DNA of 64,000 nucleotides, from the NCBI RefSeq assembly GCF_000379125.1, contig NZ_KB900626.1, forward strand, positions 2,924,667 through 2,988,666. The letters are read 5' to 3'. Numbering within the stretch: the stretch's first letter is position 1; the number at the start of each line of letters is the position of its first letter. This DNA is from Methylosinus sp. LW4. GTDB taxonomy: Bacteria > Pseudomonadota > Alphaproteobacteria > Rhizobiales > Beijerinckiaceae. Positions 21,310-45,330 of the stretch are shown here, one piece after another. The notes below the pieces were generated by a model, which saw only the letters and a program-made list of their open reading frames with translations, made no database searches and had not been told where the DNA came from. Made by a program: the position numbers and the translations under genes.

Positions 21310-21642
21310 TCAGCGATCGGCGAAGAGGGGGGTGACGCCCTCCGTATCTATATAGACGACGCCGTCCTCGATCTTGACCGGATATTCGGCGAGCCGGCTT
21401 TCCTGGGGATGGATCGGGTCGCCGGTGCGCATGTCCCACGTCCAATTATGGAGCGGGCAGGTCAGCACCTCGCCGTCGAAATCGGCCGTGTCCAGCGGCG
21501 CGTTGGTGTGCGGGCACACGCCTTGGAAGGCCTTGATCTCTCCGCCGAAGGCGAAGGCCAGGATGATGAAATGGGAATCTGCGATGACGAGACGCATTTC
21601 CCCTTCGAAAACAGTGTCCTCCTTGCAGACCCTGGTGAACAT
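21310..21642 (-). CDS. Rieske [2Fe-2S] ferredoxin, TmoC/TouC-like
   Basis: 110 residues from the ATG at 21642, preceded by GAGAGGCTAAGGAC. The cluster-binding motif is CPH (x16) CPLH, in which the Cys and His pairs ligate a Rieske 2Fe-2S centre. The size and the opening MFTRVCKEDTVFEGEM are like the small stand-alone ferredoxins of toluene/alkene monooxygenase systems (TmoC, 112 residues). Such proteins carry electrons from a reductase to an oxygenase; no oxygenase or reductase gene lies next to it here, so its partner is unknown. An alternative reading as a NirD-like nitrite reductase subunit is possible. It is divergent from cutA with 124 bases between the starts. Confidence 0.88.
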   Translation of the reverse strand: MFTRVCKEDTVFEGEMRLVIADSHFIILAFAFGGEIKAFQGVCPHTNAPLDTADFDGEVLTCPLHNWTWDMRTGDPIHPQESRLAEYPVKIEDGVVYIDTEGVTPLFADR

Positions 21643-21766
21643 GTCCTTAGCCTCTCCGAATGCCCGCCGCAGCGCCGCGGCCGCCTGCGCGAGGCCCAGC
21701 AAGAAAAGCGCCGACCCGCCCGCGGACGCGTTGATTTCGCCCGAAAGCCCGCCCATAGTCCCGCCC

Positions 21767-22111
21767 GTGAGCGCGAAAGAGCCGAAATTCTGCGTCGTCC
21801 AGACGACGATCGACACAGAGGCGGGCGCCGAGCGGCTCGCCCGCGCCCTGCTCGCCGCCAAGCTCGCCGCCTGCGTTCAGATATTCCCCATCCGCAGCTT
21901 CTACGTGTGGGCGGGCGAGACGCGCGCCGACGCGGAATTTCTGGTGCAGTCCAAAGCCCGCGCGCAGGATTATGACGCGCTCGCCGCCGCCATTCGCGCC
22001 GCGCATCCTTATGAGGTCCCGGAGATCATCCGCCTCGACGTCGCCGCCGGCGATCCCGCCTATCTCGACTGGGCGGCGCGCGCCACGGAGCGGGACGACG
22101 CCGCCTCCTGA
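21767..22111 (+). CDS. cutA: CutA divalent-cation tolerance protein
   Basis: 114 residues starting at the GTG at 21767 (VSAKEPKFCVVQTTIDTEAG), a normal CutA length. Family marks are ARALLAAKLAACVQIFPIRSFYVWAGE, corresponding to the conserved AACVN...SxYxWxG block, and HPYEVPEIIRLDV near the end. CutA is a trimeric ferredoxin-fold protein linked to copper tolerance and signalling. The frame is open upstream, but that part overlaps the promoter and coding region of the Rieske gene on the other strand. Confidence 0.93.
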   Translation: MSAKEPKFCVVQTTIDTEAGAERLARALLAAKLAACVQIFPIRSFYVWAGETRADAEFLVQSKARAQDYDALAAAIRAAHPYEVPEIIRLDVAAGDPAYLDWAARATERDDAAS

Positions 22112-22221: not shown

Positions 22222-25200
22222 ATGACGTCGATCTACTCGTCGCTGACGACCGCGCAGATCGCCCGTCTGCCGACCTCCACAATGCGTCAGCTCGACACCT
22301 CTGACATAGAGGCGCTCGACACGACGCAGATCGCCGTGCTGACGGCGACGCAGCTCAATAATCTCTCGACCACCAATCTTCAGGCGCTGGTGACGACGCA
22401 AGTCGCCTCTCTGTCCAAGGCGGCGTTGGCCGGGCTCGATCTGTCGCAATTTACGGCGCTCGCCTCCAGCGATTTCGACTCCTTCACCACGACGCAGCTC
22501 TCCGCGCTCACCAGCACGGAGCTCAATGCCCTCGACACGACCGAGCTCGGCAGCCTGAGCACGACGCGGCTGCAGGCGCTCACCGCCGCGCAGATCGCCG
22601 CGCTCTCGACGACCGAGGTCTCGCGTCTCACCACCACGCAGATCTCCAGCCTCTCCACGACGCAGGTGCGCGGCCTCACCGCCACGCAGCTCGACGCGCT
22701 CAGCCTCGATCAGATCATCGCGCTGCAGGTGAGCAATCTGAGCGCGGCGCAGGCGCGCATGCTGGACGGAACCGAGCTCGGCGCGCTCACCGCCACGCAG
22801 CTCGGCTCGCTGTCCTCGACGCAGATCGGCTCGCTGACGACCACGGCTTTCGACAGCCTCTCGCAAACGGCCGTGCAGAGCTTGACGGCGACGCAGCTCG
22901 CCGGCGTCGCCGCGACGCAGATCGCGGCGCTGACGACGACCGATCTCGGCGAGTTCGCCACGACGCAACTTTCGGCGCTGACGCTCACGCAGACGCGCGC
23001 GCTCACCACGACGCAGCTCGCGGCGATGACCTCGACCGAGATCCAATCGCTCTCGGTGGCCAATCTCTCCAATGCGCAGATCGCCGGGCTGAATGCGACC
23101 GGCGTCGGCAATCTCTCCGACGCGCAGGTGGCGGCGCTGGTCCCGACGCAGATCGCCGCTCTCTCCACGACGACGCTCAACGGGCTCACGGCGACGCGGC
23201 TCGGCGCGCTCACCACGACGCAATTTTCCGGCCTCTCCGCCGCGCAGATCGCCGGCCTCTCCGACACGACGCTCGCCAATCTGACGACGACGCGCCTCGT
23301 CGCGCTGACGGTGACGCAGGCGCGCGGGCTGACGGCGACGCAGCTCGCCGATCTCGCGACGACCGGGCTGCAATCGCTCGACGTCACCGAGCTCGCCGCC
23401 GCGCAATTCGCGGCGATCGACGCGACCACATTCTCCGACCTCTCCGCCACGCAATTTTCGGCCTTGTCCTCGACGCAGATTCGCGCGCTGACGACGACCC
23501 TGCTGAATGCGCTGTCGGCGACGACGATCGCCAGCCTGACGACGACGCAGGTCGATTGGCTGAGCGCGGCGCAGATCGCCGGCCTGACGACGACGCAGCT
23601 CGGCAATCTGACGACGGCGCAGCTCGCCACGCTCACCTCGACGCAGGCGCGCGGGCTGACGACGACGCAGCTCGGCGCCATGACGACGACGGCGATACAG
23701 TCGCTCGCCATCGGCGCCCTCACCGCCGCGCAAATCGGCGCGCTCGTCTCCAGCGACGACGGCGGATTGAGCGTCACGCAGATCGGCGCGCTCGCCTCGA
23801 CGCAAATGTCGGCGCTCTCCACCACATTCCTCAATCTGCTGACCACGACGGAGCTGCAGAGCCTCACCACGACGCAGGCCGCGGCGCTCACCTCGGCGCA
23901 GATCGGCGGACTTTCGGCCGACGCCATCGACCGGCTGACGACAGCGCAGCTCGCCACGCTCACCTCGACGCAGGCGCGCGGGCTGACGACGACGCAGCTA
24001 GACAATATGACGGCGACGCAGATCCAGTCGCTGACCATATCGCAGCTGACCGCCGCGCAGATCTCCGGCCTCGGCTCCGCCGCCTTCGGCAATCTTTCCG
24101 CGAGCCAGCTCTCCAACCTCACCTCGGCGCAGATCGCCGGGCTGACGACGACGCAATTCGACGCTTTCGGCGTGACGCAGATCGCCGGCTTCACCACCAC
24201 CCAGCTCGCCGGCCTCACCGCGACCGAGGTCAATTCGCTCGAGACGACGCAGATCGCCGCGCTGAGCGCGACGCAGATCGCCGCAATGCCGACGCGCGCC
24301 TTCGCCGGCCTCGCCGACACGCAGGTCGCCGCGCTGACGACGACGCAGCTCGCCGCCTTCGCCACCACGCAGATCGCCGCCCTCACCTCGACCGCCGCCG
24401 CCGGGCTGACCAGCGCGCAGATCGCCTCGCTCGCCACGACGCAGATCGGCGCTCTGACGGCCGCGCAGACGCGCGCGCTCGCCGATTGGCAGATCGCCAC
24501 GCTGAGCACGACGCAGCTCGGCGCCCTGACCACGACCGAGGCCGCCGCTCTCACATCGACGCAGCTCGCCGCGCTCACTCTCACGCAGATCGACACGCTG
24601 ACGACGACGCAAGTGACGGCGCTCTCGGCCGTTGCGATCGGCGGATTCTGGCAGAGCCAGATCGCCGAGCTGTCGACGACGCAAGTTTCCGCGCTCACCT
24701 CGACGCAGGTCAAGGCGCTCGCCGACACGCAGGTCGCCGCGCTCTCCGCCGCGCAGCTCGGCGCGCTCACCTCGACGCAGGTCGCCGCGCTTTCGACCAG
24801 CGGCTTCGGCGCCCTCACCTCCACCGCCGTCGCCGCTCTCACCACGACGCAGATCGGCGCGATCGGCGCGCTGCTGACAGCCGTCCTGTCCGATGCGCAA
24901 ATCGGCGCGCTGAGCACGACGCAGATCGGCGCCCTCTCCGCCGCGGCCATGTCCGGCCTCGGCGCGGCGCAGATCGCCGCCATGTCGACGACGCAGCTCG
25001 CGACGCTCGTCACCACGCAGATCGCCGCGCTGGCGACGAGCGCCGTGGCCTCGCTGTCGACGGCCGATGTCGCCATGCTGACGACGACGCAGGTCGCAGC
25101 GCTCACCTCGACGCAGATGCGCGCCATGTCGGATGCGCAGATCGCCGCCTTCTCCATCGCGCAGCTCGCCGCCTTGCAGAAAGCGCAGCTCGCCGCGCTG

Positions 25201-27834
25201 TCGACGACCGGCGTCAGCGGATTGTCGACCAGCGACATTTCCGCTCTCACCACCACGCAGCTCGGCGCGCTGACCACGGCGCAAATGAGCGTGCTCGTCG
25301 ACACGCAGCTCGCCGCTCTCACCGCGACGCAGATCGCCGCGCTGGCGGCGACGCAGATCGCGGGCCTTTCGGCGGATGCGGTCGCCAGCCTTTCGGCCAG
25401 CGTCGTCTCCGCGCTCGCCACCACGCAGCTGCGCGGCTTCACCTCGCTTCAGCTCGGCGCGCTGACGCTCGGCCAGCTGAACGCGCTCACCACGACGCAG
25501 CTCGCCGCCATGACGACGACCGAGCTCGCCGGCCTCACCGACATTCAAGCGGCGGCGCTGACGACGACGCAGCTCGGCGCGTTCGCCGGCACGCAGATCG
25601 CCGCGCTCACCACCACCGCCGTCGCCGCGCTGACGACCACCGAGGTCGCAGCGCTCAGCACGACGCAGATCGGCGCGCTCACCTCGACGCAGGCGGGCGC
25701 GCTCTCCGCGACGCAGATCGCCGCCTTCGGCCTCGATCAGCTCGCGCGGCTGACCTCGACGCAGCTCTCCGGCCTCTCCACTGCGACCATCGCCGGCCTC
25801 ACGCTCACCGAGCTGCAGGCGCTGACGACGACGCAGCTGCGCGGCCTCACCGCGGCGCTGATCGGCGCGCTGACGACCAGCGAGCTCGCCGCGCTGGCGA
25901 CGACGCAGATCGCCGCTCTGACGACGCAGGAGCTGCAAGGCCTGCTGCAGACGCAAGGCGCGGCGCTCGCCGGCACGCAATTCGACGCGCTCGCCGCCAC
26001 GCAGATCGCAGCGCTCTCCACTTCGGCGATCAGCGGGCTGACGACGACGCAGGTGCAGGCGCTGAATGCGACGCAATTCGGCGCGCTGGCGGCGACGCAA
26101 ATCTCCGCGCTCAGCAGCGCGCAGCTCGCCGCCATGACGACGACGCAAGTCGGCGCGCTCACCGCGACGCAGGCGCGCGGGCTGACCTCCACCGAGGTCT
26201 CGCAGCTCGACGCCACCAGGATCGGCGCGCTCTCCACCACGGCGATCAAATATCTCACCAGCACGGCGATCGGCGGCCTCACCGCCACGCAGATCGGCCT
26301 GCTGACGACGACGCAGCTCGCCAGCGTCGGCTCGACGCAGATCGCCGCCCTGTCCAGCACCGCCATCGCCGGGCTCAGCAGCGACGAGATCGGCGCGCTG
26401 ACGACCACGCAGTTCCGCAGCTTCTCCTCCACGGGCGTCGCCGCGCTGACGACGACGCAGGTGCAGGCGCTCACCACGGCGCAGATCGGCCTTTTGACCA
26501 GCACGCAGATCGGCGGCCTGGCGGCGACGCAAGTGGCGGCGCTCACCGCCACGCAGCTCGGCCTGCTGGTCGCCTCGCAGATCGCCGCGCTGGCGACGAC
26601 GGGCGTCGCCGGGCTGACGCAGACGCAGGTCGGCGCACTGACGACGACGCAATTCTCCGCGCTGTCCGCGGCGCAGATCGCCGCTCTGTCGACCACCGCC
26701 GTCGGCGGGCTGACGACGACGGAGCTCGGCGCGCTCACCACCACGCAATTGCAGGGGTTCACCTCCACCGAGATCGGCGCGCTCTCGACCACGCAGCTCG
26801 CCACGCTCACCACATCGCAGCTGAAGACGCTCACGCCGCTGGAAATCTATGGGCTGACCTCGGCGCAGGTCGCCGCTCTGGGGACAGACCGGCTGACGGC
26901 GCTGAGCGCGGCGCAAATCTCCTATCTCTCGACGACCGGCGTCGCCGGCCTCAGCCAGACGCAGATCGCCGCCCTCGCAGACACGCAATCGGCCGCGCTC
27001 TCGGCGGATCAGATCGCCGCTCTTTCGCCCAGCGCGGTCGCCGGCCTCAGCACGACGGAAATCGCCTCGCTCACCTCCACGCAATTCGCCAGCCTCTCGG
27101 CCTCGGCCATCGGAGCGCTGACCTCGGCGCAATTTTCGAGCCTCACCTCGACGCTGATCGCCCTGCTCTCCGCCACCGAGCTCGGCGGCCTCACCGCGAC
27201 GCAGGCGGCCTCGCTCACCACGACGCAGCTCTCCGCATTGAGCGCGACGCAGATGGGCGCCGTCTCCTCGGACGCCGTTTCTGGCCTCTCGGCGACGCAG
27301 ATCGCCGATCTGACGACGACACAATTCTCCGGCTTCCAATCCACGCAATTCGCGGCGCTGACGACGACGCAGATGCAGGCGGTGACGACGACGGAGATCG
27401 CGGCGCTGACCAACGCTCAGCTCGGCGGCCTGCTGCGCCCGCAATTGCGCGCGCTGACGACGACGCAGGTCGGCGCGCTCACCACATCGCAGATTTCCGC
27501 GCTGGCGACGACGCAGGTCGTCAATCTCACCACCACCGAGCTCGGCGCGCTCTCGTCCACGCAATTCAATGCGCTGACCTCGACGCAGATCGGCGCGCTC
27601 ACCACGCAGCAGCTCGGCAATCTCGACGGCTCGGTCATCGCCTCCTTCGACGCGCTCCAGCTCACCGGCCTCACCACCACGCAAGTGGCCGCGCTCACCA
27701 CATCCGCCATAGCGGCGCTGACGACGACCGAGCTGCTGGCGCTCAACGGCAATCAGATCGCCGCCTTCACCACGACGCAGATCGCCGGCATGACCACGCA
27801 GCAGCAGGCGGCGCTGGCGCTGGCGGTCTCGTGA
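22222..27834 (+). CDS. Giant protein composed entirely of octapeptide repeats [ST]xTQ[ILV]xxL
   Basis: 1870 residues in one frame, start ATG behind GCGGAGCGGAGCCAGCC. The complete chain parses without remainder into 230 octads, 5 pentads and a final ALAVS (1840+25+5). Typical units are TTTQIAAL, STTQLGAL, TSTEIGAL. Position 8 is always hydrophobic (about 200 Leu, otherwise Phe/Met/Val/Ile), position 5 is mostly Ile/Leu/Val/Phe, position 4 mostly Gln. The S/T-x-x-Q/E pattern is a helix-capping box, so each unit may be a capped short helix in a solenoid; a beta-solenoid is an alternative. There is no signal peptide, no membrane helix, no Cys or His seen, and very few charged residues. Similar runs occur in uncharacterised proteobacterial proteins, to my memory, but no function is known. 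It sits between cutA and the yibQ-like/rppH pair, in the same direction. Confidence 0.9.
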   Translation: MTSIYSSLTTAQIARLPTSTMRQLDTSDIEALDTTQIAVLTATQLNNLSTTNLQALVTTQVASLSKAALAGLDLSQFTALASSDFDSFTTTQLSALTSTELNALDTTELGSLSTTRLQALTAAQIAALSTTEVSRLTTTQISSLSTTQVRGLTATQLDALSLDQIIALQVSNLSAAQARMLDGTELGALTATQLGSLSSTQIGSLTTTAFDSLSQTAVQSLTATQLAGVAATQIAALTTTDLGEFATTQLSALTLTQTRALTTTQLAAMTSTEIQSLSVANLSNAQIAGLNATGVGNLSDAQVAALVPTQIAALSTTTLNGLTATRLGALTTTQFSGLSAAQIAGLSDTTLANLTTTRLVALTVTQARGLTATQLADLATTGLQSLDVTELAAAQFAAIDATTFSDLSATQFSALSSTQIRALTTTLLNALSATTIASLTTTQVDWLSAAQIAGLTTTQLGNLTTAQLATLTSTQARGLTTTQLGAMTTTAIQSLAIGALTAAQIGALVSSDDGGLSVTQIGALASTQMSALSTTFLNLLTTTELQSLTTTQAAALTSAQIGGLSADAIDRLTTAQLATLTSTQARGLTTTQLDNMTATQIQSLTISQLTAAQISGLGSAAFGNLSASQLSNLTSAQIAGLTTTQFDAFGVTQIAGFTTTQLAGLTATEVNSLETTQIAALSATQIAAMPTRAFAGLADTQVAALTTTQLAAFATTQIAALTSTAAAGLTSAQIASLATTQIGALTAAQTRALADWQIATLSTTQLGALTTTEAAALTSTQLAALTLTQIDTLTTTQVTALSAVAIGGFWQSQIAELSTTQVSALTSTQVKALADTQVAALSAAQLGALTSTQVAALSTSGFGALTSTAVAALTTTQIGAIGALLTAVLSDAQIGALSTTQIGALSAAAMSGLGAAQIAAMSTTQLATLVTTQIAALATSAVASLSTADVAMLTTTQVAALTSTQMRAMSDAQIAAFSIAQLAALQKAQLAALSTTGVSGLSTSDISALTTTQLGALTTAQMSVLVDTQLAALTATQIAALAATQIAGLSADAVASLSASVVSALATTQLRGFTSLQLGALTLGQLNALTTTQLAAMTTTELAGLTDIQAAALTTTQLGAFAGTQIAALTTTAVAALTTTEVAALSTTQIGALTSTQAGALSATQIAAFGLDQLARLTSTQLSGLSTATIAGLTLTELQALTTTQLRGLTAALIGALTTSELAALATTQIAALTTQELQGLLQTQGAALAGTQFDALAATQIAALSTSAISGLTTTQVQALNATQFGALAATQISALSSAQLAAMTTTQVGALTATQARGLTSTEVSQLDATRIGALSTTAIKYLTSTAIGGLTATQIGLLTTTQLASVGSTQIAALSSTAIAGLSSDEIGALTTTQFRSFSSTGVAALTTTQVQALTTAQIGLLTSTQIGGLAATQVAALTATQLGLLVASQIAALATTGVAGLTQTQVGALTTTQFSALSAAQIAALSTTAVGGLTTTELGALTTTQLQGFTSTEIGALSTTQLATLTTSQLKTLTPLEIYGLTSAQVAALGTDRLTALSAAQISYLSTTGVAGLSQTQIAALADTQSAALSADQIAALSPSAVAGLSTTEIASLTSTQFASLSASAIGALTSAQFSSLTSTLIALLSATELGGLTATQAASLTTTQLSALSATQMGAVSSDAVSGLSATQIADLTTTQFSGFQSTQFAALTTTQMQAVTTTEIAALTNAQLGGLLRPQLRALTTTQVGALTTSQISALATTQVVNLTTTELGALSSTQFNALTSTQIGALTTQQLGNLDGSVIASFDALQLTGLTTTQVAALTTSAIAALTTTELLALNGNQIAAFTTTQIAGMTTQQQAALALAVS
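22666..24048 (+). repeat. 327-base higher-order repeats (13 octads plus one pentad)
   Basis: The [VTA]R[GA]L motif recurs at 22666, 22993, 23320, 23647 and 23974, exactly 327 bases apart. After each, two octads are followed by a five-residue unit (22726, 23053, 23380, 23707, 24034: QVSNL, SVANL, DVTEL, AIGAL, TISQL). The units at 23614 and 23941 are almost identical in DNA over about 57 bases, so part of the array duplicated recently. Confidence 0.88.
26017..27288 (+). repeat. 336-base higher-order period (14 octads) in the C-terminal half
   Basis: Octads lacking Gln at position 4 (such as STSAISGL, SSTAIAGL, STTAVGGL, SPSAVAGL) start at 26017, 26353, 26689 and 27025, each 336 bases apart; a second series starts at 26257, 26593, 26929 and 27265 with the same spacing. 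This is 14 units, the same unit number as the 327-base repeats once the pentad is counted as a shortened octad. Confidence 0.75.
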
Positions 27835-27896
27835 TTCCACATTGATCGGGAGGCGCCGCGATTCGCGCCGCCGCAAGAGGGAGCCGTCCGCGGGCC

Positions 27897-29102
27897 ATGA
27901 CCGACGAATTGAACGAGCCTTTGGGCTTGAACGAGCCGCTGGAGCCACGCCCGGCGCGCCGGCGCGGCGCGCGGACGAAAAGCCTCGTCGTCGCAGCGCT
28001 GCTCTGTGGAGTCGGCGGCGCCGCGCTTCTCCTGTCCTCGCGCGATCCTCGAGCCGGCCAGCCCATCGCCGTCGCGCGCATCGAAACGGTCGAGCCGCCG
28101 TCCACGCCGGCGAGCGCTCCCGCCGAGCGCGCAGCGGTCACGGAGGAGGACAAGCGCGCCGATGAGATCGCCGACATAGAGAAGCGCTCCGGCGTCAAGG
28201 TCACGCGCATCGGCGGCGCAGAGCCGCCCGGCGCGCTCATCATAAGGCTCGACGAGCAGCATACGGCGCTCGCGCCGGCGCCGGACAAGCGCCTGGTGGA
28301 AAAAGGCCGCAGCGGCCCGCTGCCCAAGATCGGCGCCGATGGCGCGAAGCCGATGGAAGTCTACGCCCGCCCGACGACGATCAGCGCGCGCCTGCCCGCC
28401 GGCGCGCCGCGCATCGCGCTCGTCGTCGGCGGCGTCGGGCTCAATGCGCAGCTCACGGCGAGCGCCATCGACGAAATGCCCGGCGCCGTCACGCTGGCGC
28501 TCGCGCCCTATGGCGCCGATCCCGAGAGCGTCGCCGCCAAGGCGCGCGACCGCGGCCATGAGATTTTGCTGCAGGCGCCGATGGAGCCCTATGATTATCC
28601 GCGCGAGAACCCCGGGCCGCATACGCTGCTGACGACGCGCGGCGCCGGCCTCGAGGATCTGCACTGGCTGATGAGCCGCTTTTCCGGCTATATCGGCGTG
28701 GTGAATTATCTCGGCGCGCAATTCACCGCCGACGAGACCGCGCTGACGCCGACGCTCACCGACATTGCCGGGCGCGGCCTGCTCTATCTCGACGACGGCA
28801 CCTCGCCGCGCTCGCTCGTCTCCTCTCTCGCGCCGCGTCTCGCCTTGACGGCGGCGCGGGCCGATGTGGCGATCGACGCCGGCGCCTCGGGCGAGGCGCT
28901 GGAGAAGGCGCTGACGCAGATCGAGGCGCTCGCGCGCCGCAATGGTCAGGCGATCGTCGCGGCCGGCGCGCTGCCGCAGACGATGACGCGCCTCACGCGG
29001 TTCGCGCGCGAGCTCGAGCGCAAGGGAATAGCGCTCGTCCCGCTGAGCGCGCTGGTGTCGCGGATCGAGGACAAAGAGGCGAGAGCCGGAAAGTGGAAAT
29101 GA
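27897..29102 (+). CDS. Divergent polysaccharide deacetylase (YibQ/DUF610) family protein
   Basis: 401 residues. A cytoplasmic N-terminal tail of about 28 residues is followed by one membrane helix (about 29-50, [20 protein letters not shown]), a low-complexity periplasmic linker to about residue 170, and the NodB-like domain ([77 protein letters not shown]). The MEPYDYP and GxxNYxGA blocks are signatures of this family, often encoded beside ctpA and envC in other bacteria. Catalysis on envelope polysaccharide is suggested by fold only. Its stop codon overlaps the ATG of rppH (ATGA). Confidence 0.9.
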
Positions 29103-31949: not shown

Positions 31950-33707
31950 ATGTCCGTTCTCTCTGTCTATCTCCGTGTCCTCGCGCAGCTGAAGCCGCAG
32001 AAGCGCCTCGCGGCGATCCTCGTCGCGGCCAATCTCGCCGTGGCCATTGCGCAATTCGCCGAGCCCATGCTGTTCGGCCGCGTCATAGACGTGCTGACGC
32101 GCGCGCAGGCGGCGGGCGTCAAGCTCGCTTGGGGCGATCTTCTGCCGCTGCTGGCGGCGTGGGCCGGCTTCGGCCTCTTCTCGATCGCCGCCTCCGTGCT
32201 GGTCGCGCTGCACGCCGACCGTCTCGCGCATCGGAGCAGACTCGCGGTGATGGCCGCCTATTTCGAGCATGTGCTCGATCTGCCGTCGAGCTTTCACGCC
32301 AGCGCGCATTCCGGCCGGCTGCTGAAGGTGATGCTGGAGGGCGCCTCCGGCATGGCGGGGCTGTGGCTCTCCTTCTTCCGCGAGAATTGCGCCTCCTTCG
32401 TCGCGCTCTTCGTGCTGCTGCCGGCGACGCTCTTCGTCAACTGGCGGCTCGCTCTGCCGCTCATCCTTCTCGTCATCGTCTTCGGCGCGCTCACCTCTTT
32501 CGTCCTACGCCGCACCGAGCAATTGCAGAGCAAGGTGGAGCGTCATCATTCCTCGCTCGCCGAGCACGCCTCCGACGCTCTGGGCAATGTCGCCGTGGTG
32601 CAGAGCTTCACGCGCATAGAGAGCGAGACCAATGCGCTGCGGCGGATCATCGACGAATTGCTTGCCGCGCAAATTCCGGTGCTCTCCTGGTGGGCGCTGG
32701 CCGCGGTGGCGAGCCGCGCCTCGGCGACGCTCACTCTGCTCGTCATCTTCCTGCTCGGCGCCTGGCTGCATTTGCAGGGCCTCGCCTCCATCGGCGAGAT
32801 CGTCGCCTTCATGAGCTTCGCGACCATGCTCATCGGCCGCCTCGAGCAAATGGTCGGCTTTTTGAACGTGCTGTTTCTGCTCGCGCCGAAGATCGCGGAA
32901 TTCTTCGCCATTCTCGACACGCGCCCGACGGTCGCCGATCGCGAGGATGCGCGTGATCTCGGCCGGCTCGAAGGCGCGGTCGCCTTCGAGAAGGTGAGCT
33001 TTTCTTATGGCGGCGAGCGTCTCGCGCTGCGCGACGTCTCCTTCTCGGCGCGGCGGGGCGAGACCATAGCGCTGGTGGGCGCGACCGGCTCGGGCAAATC
33101 GACGACGCTCGGCCTCTTGCATCGCGTCTTCGATCCCACGCAGGGAAGGGTGACGATCGACGGGGTCGACATTCGCGACATGACGCTGACCTCGCTTCGC
33201 CGCAACATCGGCGTCGTGTTTCAGGAGCCCATGCTGTTCGCCCGCTCGATCGAGGAGAATTTGCGCGTCGGCAAGCCGGACGCCAGCGAGGAGGAGATCG
33301 CCCGCGCCGTCGAGCTGGCGCAGGCGCGCGATCTGGTGGCGCGGCAGAGCGAGGGGCTTTCGACGCTGGTCGGCGAGCGCGGCCGCACGCTGTCGGGCGG
33401 CGAGCGTCAACGCCTCTCCATCGCCCGCGCGCTGCTGAAGGACCCGCCGATCATGATCTTCGACGAGGCGACCAGCGCGCTGGACGCGACCACCGAGCGT
33501 CAGTTGCAGAAGGCGCTGGAGGCGGCGACGGCCGGCCGCACCACTTTCATCATCGCCCATCGTCTGGCCACGGTGCGCCATGCGGACCGCATATTGGTGC
33601 TGGATCGCGGCGAGATCGTCGAGAGCGGGACCTTCGACGAGCTGGTGGCCAAAGGCGGGCTGTTCGCCGATCTCGCCAAGGCGCAGTTCATCGCGGCGGG
33701 GGCGTGA
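31950..33707 (+). CDS. ndvA: Beta-(1,2)-glucan exporter-like ABC transporter, fused permease and ATPase
   Basis: 585 residues. Six membrane helices lie in about residues 18-290, followed by the nucleotide-binding domain with Walker [15 protein letters not shown] near 380, signature [16 protein letters not shown] near 482, Walker [13 protein letters not shown] near 503 and H-loop IIAHRLAT near 535. The overall sequence, starting [17 protein letters not shown] and continuing [10 protein letters not shown], is close to the NdvA/ChvA/Cgt group that exports cyclic beta-1,2-glucan to the periplasm in rhizobia. No glucan synthase (ndvB) is nearby, so the substrate is inferred from similarity alone; a general lipid/peptide exporter is the alternative. 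Confidence 0.82.
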
Positions 33708-44788: not shown

Positions 44789-44946
44789 GCGCTTTATAAA
44801 AAGAGTATGTAAATTCAATCCGCTATAGGGATCATGCGGACGCGCTTCGTCCGAATGCGCTCTATTTTCACGAGAAAGTCGGGGAGATCGGCGCAGCTTT
44901 GCGCCGCAACCCCTTTCCGCATCGGCCCTTAATGCGTATATTGTGA

Positions 44947-45238
44947 GCTGCCGACCTTCGGGACGGCTATGGCGATAAACGAACTCCGTAATAAACCTAT
45001 CGGACCCGGGGGCGGTACCCGGCGCCTCCACCAGAGGCCGTCACGCGAGCGCGAGTTTGGCGCGGCGGCTTGTGGCGGGGGCGAAATAGGATCGACGAGG
45101 GCGTAAAGGGTGCTTTTTCGCTCGGCATGATACCGCCGTTATCGGGTCAAACCTTATAGTTGCCAACGACAACTATGCTCCGGTGGCCGTCGCTGCGTAA
45201 TGCAGTGAAGGTACTGGGATTCAAGCCCTAGGGGGTTG
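44947..45238 (+). ncRNA. ssrA: Permuted two-piece transfer-messenger RNA (tmRNA)
   Basis: The order is that of the circularly permuted alphaproteobacterial gene. The acceptor piece comes first (about 44947-45033), with a GCCG...CGGC hairpin closed by a TTCG loop at the left and the T-arm plus 3' end CCCGGCGCCTCCACCA at 45018-45033. An intervening segment of about 45 bases follows, then the coding piece starting GGGGGCGAAATAGGATCGAC near 45079. CGCCTCC of the acceptor end pairs with GGGGGCG of the coding piece (one G-U). The tag frame begins GCC at 45162 and reads ANDNYAPVAVAA, stop TAA 45198-45200; the leading Ala comes from the charged tmRNA. A -10 box TATATT at 44937-44942 fits a start near 44949. 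The outer ends are approximate. It rescues stalled ribosomes; sspB, the adaptor for tagged proteins, is the next gene. Confidence 0.93.
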
Positions 45239-45330
45239 CACTTCTAGGCGGGGCTCGGAGGCGCCTGGCAACAGAAGCCTCCACTTTCGTCCCGGCGGGG
45301 CAGAGCGAACAGGGGTTCTCGGCGAGAGTC

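Follow-up and report, generated by a model that had tools for sequence, protein, structure and literature searches.

A 1870-residue octapeptide-repeat protein of Methylosinus: predicted helical-screw rod of conserved length and candidate glycoprotein

The helical screw was described late in 2025 as a new structure obtained from random repeats (Yang et al., bioRxiv 2025, PMC12822642). Judging from its name and size, the designed and solved protein HeliScrew4 (Protein Data Bank, PDB, entry 9zem) very probably corresponds to the "tightly wound alpha-helical screw" presented in that preprint. Here we describe a natural protein that shares its octad pattern, the 1870-residue octapeptide-repeat protein P0001 (paralogue A below), encoded in a 64,000-nucleotide stretch of the methane-consuming bacterium Methylosinus sp. 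LW4 (contig NZ_KB900626.1, positions 2,924,667 to 2,988,666; the whole stretch is called the window). The repeat itself is known as the Pfam ALTTAQ repeat, PF20080, which matches P0001 in 40 stretches (E 2.5e-210, 680.3 bits, gathering cut-off 26.4 bits), while NCBIfam gives zero matches. The Pfam entry names the repeat and gives no function, and a literature search, including full-text queries for ALTTAQ, PF20080 and HeliScrew, likewise found none, so that the repeat belongs to a resolved family, of the kind against which a first, sequence-only reading had to be checked, but not to one of known function in the literature searched. What has been worked out here in addition to PF20080 is a 109-residue superunit, a 27.35-residue turn, a fixed length and a pairing with glycosyltransferases of family GT41.

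The gene lies on the plus strand, with its ATG at 22222, its stop codon at 27832-27834 and no internal stop, and the coordinates, frame and length of 1870 residues given by the sequence-only reading proved exact on translation. That reading had furthermore divided the chain into 230 octads, five pentads and a final ALAVS, and a dynamic-programming parse reproduced this division, i.e. 230 octads and six five-residue pieces, five of them internal pentads and the sixth the tail at residues 1866-1870. The pentads have an order that the earlier reading did not contain, since they begin at residues 169, 278, 387, 496 and 605 with a spacing of exactly 109, and each of them has the form x-[IV]-x-x-L, corresponding to octad positions 4-8 without the first three residues. 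From the N-terminus the chain accordingly runs through 21 octads, four superunits of a pentad and 13 octads each and one further pentad to a block of 157 octads and the tail:

22222..27834, plus strand: coding sequence of the 1870-residue octad protein P0001, paralogue A (translation, PF20080, substitution rates)
22222..22725, plus strand: N-terminal block, residues 1-168, 21 octads (parse)
22726..24033, plus strand: four 109-residue superunits, residues 169-604, each about 3.99 turns of the putative solenoid (pentad spacing, 27.35 residues per turn)
24034..24048, plus strand: fifth pentad, TISQL, residues 605-609 (parse)
24049..27816, plus strand: C-terminal block, residues 610-1865, 157 uninterrupted octads with a 3.42-octad superperiod (parse, alignment, spectrum)
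27817..27831, plus strand: tail ALAVS, residues 1866-1870 (parse)

The octads are loose and non-identical (216 of the 230 are distinct), but position 8 is leucine in 200 of them, position 5 is I, L, V or F in 204 and position 4 is glutamine in 151 and glutamate in 23, while 483 of the 564 serines and threonines fall at positions 1-3 and the protein contains zero cysteine and zero histidine. The strict pattern [ST]-x-[TA]-[QE]-[ILVF]-x-x-[LFMVI] is matched 104 times, as opposed to a mean of 1.7 and a maximum of 7 in 1000 residue shuffles. The purity of the repeat had been considered unusual, but within the family this is not so, since 16 of 25 open reading frames (ORFs), the window's included, consist of at least 95% octads when stop-to-stop frames are parsed permissively. 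The repeat is also open over long distances in other frames (22710-25442, minus strand, 910 residues; 23998-27948, minus strand, 1316 residues; 23556-27845, plus strand, 1429 residues), and these are taken as by-products of the codon pattern of the octads.

In the AlphaFold2 model of residues 1-520 (mean predicted local distance difference test score 86.3, predicted template-modelling score 0.64) there is no strand, and helix is predicted at octad positions 2-6 in all 61 octads scored (residues 1-508), with position 1, mostly serine or threonine, directly before the helix; the alternative that positions 1-3 form a pure loop was rejected since the model has positions 2 and 3 inside the helix. 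P0001 likewise has the sequence hallmarks of an alpha-helical screw, namely an eight-residue unit, a serine or threonine N-cap and hydrophobic residues at positions 5 and 8, and HeliScrew4 aligns to it over 107 residues without gaps (E 2.5e-14). HeliScrew4 differs in being a design of 120 residues in which Pro and Glu/Asp are common at octad positions 2-3, whereas P0001 is natural, has mostly Thr, Ser and Ala at these positions and is interrupted by pentads. The short-helix solenoid with a capping box that had been suggested from the sequence thus finds support in both the prediction and the HeliScrew4 match, and we regard a helical-screw fold as highly probable. In a VIA-align structural comparison of the model, 9zem was not among the 50 matches listed. 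Leucine-rich repeat proteins share with P0001 a leucine every eight residues, which gives rise to matches with such proteins in the PDB, but they have a strand per repeat where the model of P0001 has one helix per eight residues; the leucine-rich repeat family LRR_EndoS scores 35.1 bits on the whole protein, above its cut-off of 27.9, yet 0 single stretches pass.

The number of turns follows from a superperiod in the octads, which was sought by spectral analysis of octad features in the longest uninterrupted run of each of 18 proteins, three of them orthologues (G000, G042 and G104), with permuted octad order as the null. A peak at 0.291-0.296 cycles per octad (3.38-3.44 octads) was the highest in 15 of the 18 and above 99% of the null, and the 3.42-octad peak was second in locus L114 and third in L122, in both cases above the null, while it was absent from L106 with its run of only 44 octads; the peaks of L111, L112, L115, L119, L121 and L122 are inflated by strong duplications. 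A finer grid places the turn at 27.35 residues for P0001 and L099 and at 27.44 for L100, and glycine at position 7 agrees in phase to 1-15 degrees among four A-type proteins of three genera when these are aligned at the C-terminus. The superperiod of 3.42 octads therefore implies about 68 turns in P0001, and the figure of about 230 turns previously put forward is not supported. At 27.35 residues per turn, 109 residues make 3.99 turns and 136 make 4.97, and in all but one of the 23 ORFs that show an internal duplication distance the commonest such distance, which is the only one counted per ORF, deviates from an integral turn count by no more than 0.13 (22 of 23; a further 6 of the 29 ORFs show none). 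Counted as distinct distances, partly multiples of one another (272 = 2 x 136, 327 = 3 x 109), nine of ten fit within 0.13, as compared with a chance rate of 14 in 49 for multiples of 8 from 56 to 440, and it should also be mentioned that the spectral and duplication-distance tests have relatives in common. The simplest reading is that P0001 would be a solenoid in which about 3.4 units complete a turn and the faces tend to keep their alignment as units come or go.

Orthologues of paralogue A, defined by at least 66% identity over the first 183 residues, are found in eight of ten genomes of the genus, with 95% to 61% identity to P0001 and lengths of 1870 residues in five, 1869 in one, where a single residue is lost at column 292, and 1760 in two, which lack exactly one unit of 109 residues together with one residue at the N-terminus. 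Parsing places the start of the first pentad at residue 168 or 169 in ten A-type proteins and at 169 in four B paralogues (see below), and from residue 611 onward 1086 changes, inferred by parsimony on a tree set from the identities, are accompanied by zero insertions or deletions in the eight genomes. Against the most diverged syntenic orthologue (G042) P0001 shows 426 mismatches and 0 gaps where 8.3 are predicted, and over five pairs 2.2, 7.7, 2.7, 8.3 and 3.2 gaps are predicted and 0, 1, 0, 0 and 0 observed, the baseline being 0.009-0.031 gaps per mismatch in other conserved ORFs of the region (n = 23, 9, 6, 13 and 19 by genome, of which one or two may not be genes). In the A-type proteins of two other genera (G009 and G073) the block between the last pentad, which it includes, and the tail measures 1397 residues in each case, and these blocks align without gaps at 56.6% identity, their 136 extra residues over the 1261 of P0001 residing in gaps of 112 (at the block start) and 24, i.e. 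14 and 3 whole octads; two Cereibacter octad proteins, of 1561 residues each, are likewise gapless at 97% identity. The ratio of nonsynonymous to synonymous substitution rates (dN/dS) of P0001 relative to four orthologues of 1870 residues is 0.22-0.38, and 0.055 at octad position 4. The length of paralogue A is fixed, and near-constancy at such divergence is what a molecular ruler should show; the earlier suggestion of a filament or ruler, a putative role, is strengthened because length is kept almost exactly in eight genomes.

Paralogue B (L009, at about 802-805 kb of contig C1 in the same genome) begins almost like paralogue A, with MTSIFTSLT. Its N-block is 168 residues long and is followed, nearly as far as the C-terminus, by pentads at intervals of 109 residues, and it is largely made up of near-identical 327-bp units. 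Of eight copies the four complete ones were measured, with 2152, 2588, 2806 and 3350 residues; modulo 109 the first three agree and the fourth is one residue off. The other four contain N or are truncated by contig ends, and the copy of the own genome was left out of the length comparison because of its runs of N. Since B varies in length, a fixed length is no general need of the fold. In G105 the B cluster adjoins a gene that by eye, from its N-terminus, is dnaA-like.

The gene after paralogue B encodes a GT41 glycosyltransferase with tetratricopeptide repeats (TPR-GT41; PF13844, E 3.1e-83), one of three GT41 genes in the own genome. The closest known enzymes are the GT41 members human OGT (7yea) and XcOGT (2jlb). 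It matches human OGT with E 3.2e-89, HTT region included, but unlike OGT and XcOGT this bacterial gene stands beside that of one large Ser/Thr-rich repeat protein, its putative substrate. Outside the genus a GT41 gene was found near the octad gene at 15 of 26 loci (L099-L124), in 14 cases by sequence search and at L116 by annotation, and it is adjacent to the A-type genes of L099 and L100. No GT41 was found in the examined stretch of L101, L103, L104, L108, L109, L110, L113, L114, L120, L123 and L124, but for L110 a GT41 was located outside the examined stretch, at a distance of 1.1 kb from the octad matches on the same contig. The 26 loci stem from fewer genomes (shared by L099 and L106, L101 and L102, and L103 and L104, with L112 and L118 from one species), include plasmid records picked for spread of genera, and count L120 as octad-bearing from a tblastn match without octad parse.

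A sample of 99 genomes of the family was examined as well. PF20080 is present in 20 of these, including all three genus members, and in at least 12 of the 20 a GT41 gene lies 146-2060 bases from an octad match on the same contig; at most 11 GT41 candidates were scored per genome, the octad matches listed cover 12 of the 20, and G029 and G050 have GT41 genes but no octad match placed. GT41s at least 56% identical to the partner of paralogue B occur in eight genomes of six genera, all eight PF20080-positive (chance 7e-7, hypergeometric, kinship ignored), while 51 of the 99 have some weaker match to GT41 or TPR. In a subset of the 25 parsed ORFs the Ser + Thr content amounts to 0.275 (n 13) with an adjacent GT41 and 0.239 (n 8) without one, a difference that falls short of significance (P 0.07). 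A UDP-glucuronate-decarboxylase-like, i.e. UDP-xylose-synthase-like, gene lies near the octad gene at four of the 26 loci; that of L111, the only one compared with solved structures, matches human UXS1 (E 1.2e-128), and those of L099, L102 and L116 match nothing above NCBIfam cut-off. The frequent position of relatives' octad genes beside GT41 suggests that the rod is a glycoprotein, and we consider the chances of a GT41 relation about even for P0001 and higher for paralogue B.

By protein search 217 relatives were found at E <=0.001 (8000 candidates scored), and many of them, among the 120 matches listed, combine PF20080 with RTX, filamentous-haemagglutinin, calpain or G8 domains. PF20080 was also found in one of 14 named control genomes, that of Caulobacter vibrioides. 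Public records name the octad proteins of L112, L118 and L117 "heme utilization protein" or "ICE nucleation protein", labels that are unsupported by the present data. The matching gene of Polaromonas JS666 plasmid 2 (L120) lies among transposases, in Rhodovastum (L119) the octad gene has a GT41 after it and flagellar genes at a distance of 2-5 kb (fliI-type ATPase, flgC, fliE, fliQ, flhA), and G103, a 2.8-Mb genus member, has neither a match to the octad query nor an HlyD protein above cut-off.

The explanation we favor, which in our judgement may equally well be right or wrong as a whole, is a fixed-length helical-screw rod that is O-glycosylated on a Ser/Thr-rich surface. We picture the product as a stiff, entirely alpha-helical rod, in effect a helical screw of natural origin. 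Each octad would contribute one short Ser/Thr-capped helix, with some 3.4 octads to the turn, and the roughly 68 turns would give the rod a constant length. The superunit of 13 octads and one shortened unit would equal four whole turns, so that gain or loss of one keeps residues on their face, and the Ser/Thr-rich helix starts could offer several hundred hydroxyls. The dedicated, O-GlcNAc-transferase-like GT41 encoded beside the paralogue, and beside relatives elsewhere, would then most likely glycosylate the rod in the cytoplasm, the result being a glycoprotein rod that serves as a spacer or filament of defined length. Serine-rich-repeat and HMW1-type adhesins, which are glycosylated in the cytoplasm before export, follow the same logic, but have a different repeat, whereas in the present case an octad screw is paired with GT41 and the genome has no type I adaptor above cut-off. 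Several observations weigh against the proposal. Sequence search found no GT41 within the 64-kb window, and the best HlyD adaptor of the own genome scores 42.3 bits, far under the TIGR01843 cut-off of 208.65. The whole-turn rule is furthermore broken by L101 (315 residues, 11.52 turns), by three gaps of 2-3 residues between two Shinella octad proteins of 61% identity, and by lesser duplication distances, e.g. 40 and 176 residues in L117 and 307 in L106.

P0001 might instead be an adhesin or a protein of the extracellular matrix that type I secretion exports in unfolded form and that builds surface fibres, an idea suggested by its relatives, some of which are labelled "heme utilization" or "exoprotein" or contain the RTX and filamentous-haemagglutinin domains mentioned above. 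An HlyD and a type I ABC transporter are found near the octad gene at six of the 26 loci (Niveispirillum, two Cereibacter, two Pseudomonas and Pseudoroseomonas, two being of the same species), and members linked to type I secretion, as well as others, have by eye a like C-terminal ending (AFTxTQxxxM). Type I secretion probably exports the octad protein in some relatives. In the genus, HlyD exceeds the cut-off in six of ten genomes but in none of G000, G042, G103 and G105, and since G000, G042 and G105 keep octad genes without the adaptor, type I export should not be assumed here. In addition, the five longest ABC matches of the own genome (28-31% identity) leave the N-terminal part uncovered, because they start at query residue 162 or later, and with these partial matches and no adaptor above cut-off, type I export was rejected for the own genome and retained for relatives. 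P0001 has no Pfam match to RTX (PF00353), although some type I substrates lack RTX nonapeptides, and reading the N-terminus by eye, with no predictor used, revealed neither a signal peptide nor a surface anchor; for the surface layer that had also been proposed no evidence was found. We consider the adhesin improbable, if by no means negligible.

An intracellular and unglycosylated ruler or scaffold of fixed length, spacing membranes or other structures, is in good agreement with a length constant to one residue in six genomes, with the lack of a visible signal peptide and with the three octad-bearing genomes that have no type I adaptor above cut-off, but in poor agreement with the GT41 pairing across genera and with the 2152 to 3350 residues spanned by complete copies of the same-build paralogue B, and is to our mind a minority possibility of much the same weight as the adhesin. 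A threonine array binding ligand or ice is suggested by the regular T-rich rows and by some Cereibacter records labelled "ICE nucleation protein". Ice nucleation proteins are indeed long, T-rich and octapeptide-based, but their octapeptides, AGYGSTxT, form beta solenoids, whereas P0001 has a different motif, is predicted to be all-helical and has no ice-nucleation Pfam match, making this function very unlikely. Neutral repeat expansion without function is hardly credible: repeats do grow easily, as the near-identical units of B illustrate, but the low dN/dS values, above all at octad position 4, and the gap-free C-blocks of eight orthologues argue against it.

The genes next to P0001 in the window are the following:

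21374..22111, plus strand: upstream neighbour with a CutA1 domain, its stop 110 bp before the octad start codon (Pfam)
27897..29102, plus strand: downstream neighbour, a divergent polysaccharide deacetylase, 62 bp past the octad stop (Pfam)

The deacetylase is 84% identical to its counterpart in Methylosinus sporium DSM 17706 and 82% to that of Methylosinus sp. Ce-a6, which would place the window in Methylosinus or a very close neighbour. A function deduced from these neighbours was rejected because the deacetylase does not adjoin the octad gene in G104 and G105, where it is on another contig or megabases distant. Elsewhere in the window, a glucan exporter ChvA-type ABC transporter at 31950-33707 is above its curated NCBIfam cut-off, and ARAGORN reports a transfer-messenger RNA gene at 44941-45291 with the tag ANDNYAPVAVAA and an asterisk, which we take to denote the permuted type.

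If the HeliScrew match holds, bacteria already build the helical screw, at more than ten times the length of the design, and the whole-turn rule allows a testable geometry to be derived from the sequence by itself. Bacterial GT41 would furthermore gain a candidate class of natural substrates from the placement of a dedicated OGT-like enzyme next to an obvious Ser/Thr-rich partner. More speculatively, the octad proteins might represent a natural class of bacterial glycoprotein rods, screws that lengthen mainly by whole turns (109 residues for 4, 136 for 5 and 192 for 7), with a straight stripe of small residues on one face for side-by-side contact and with GT41 decoration added in the cytoplasm, possibly by O-xylosylation in view of the UDP-xylose-synthase-like gene in some octad loci. 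Paralogue A of Methylosinus would then be a fixed-length ruler form of such rods and paralogue B an adjustable one.
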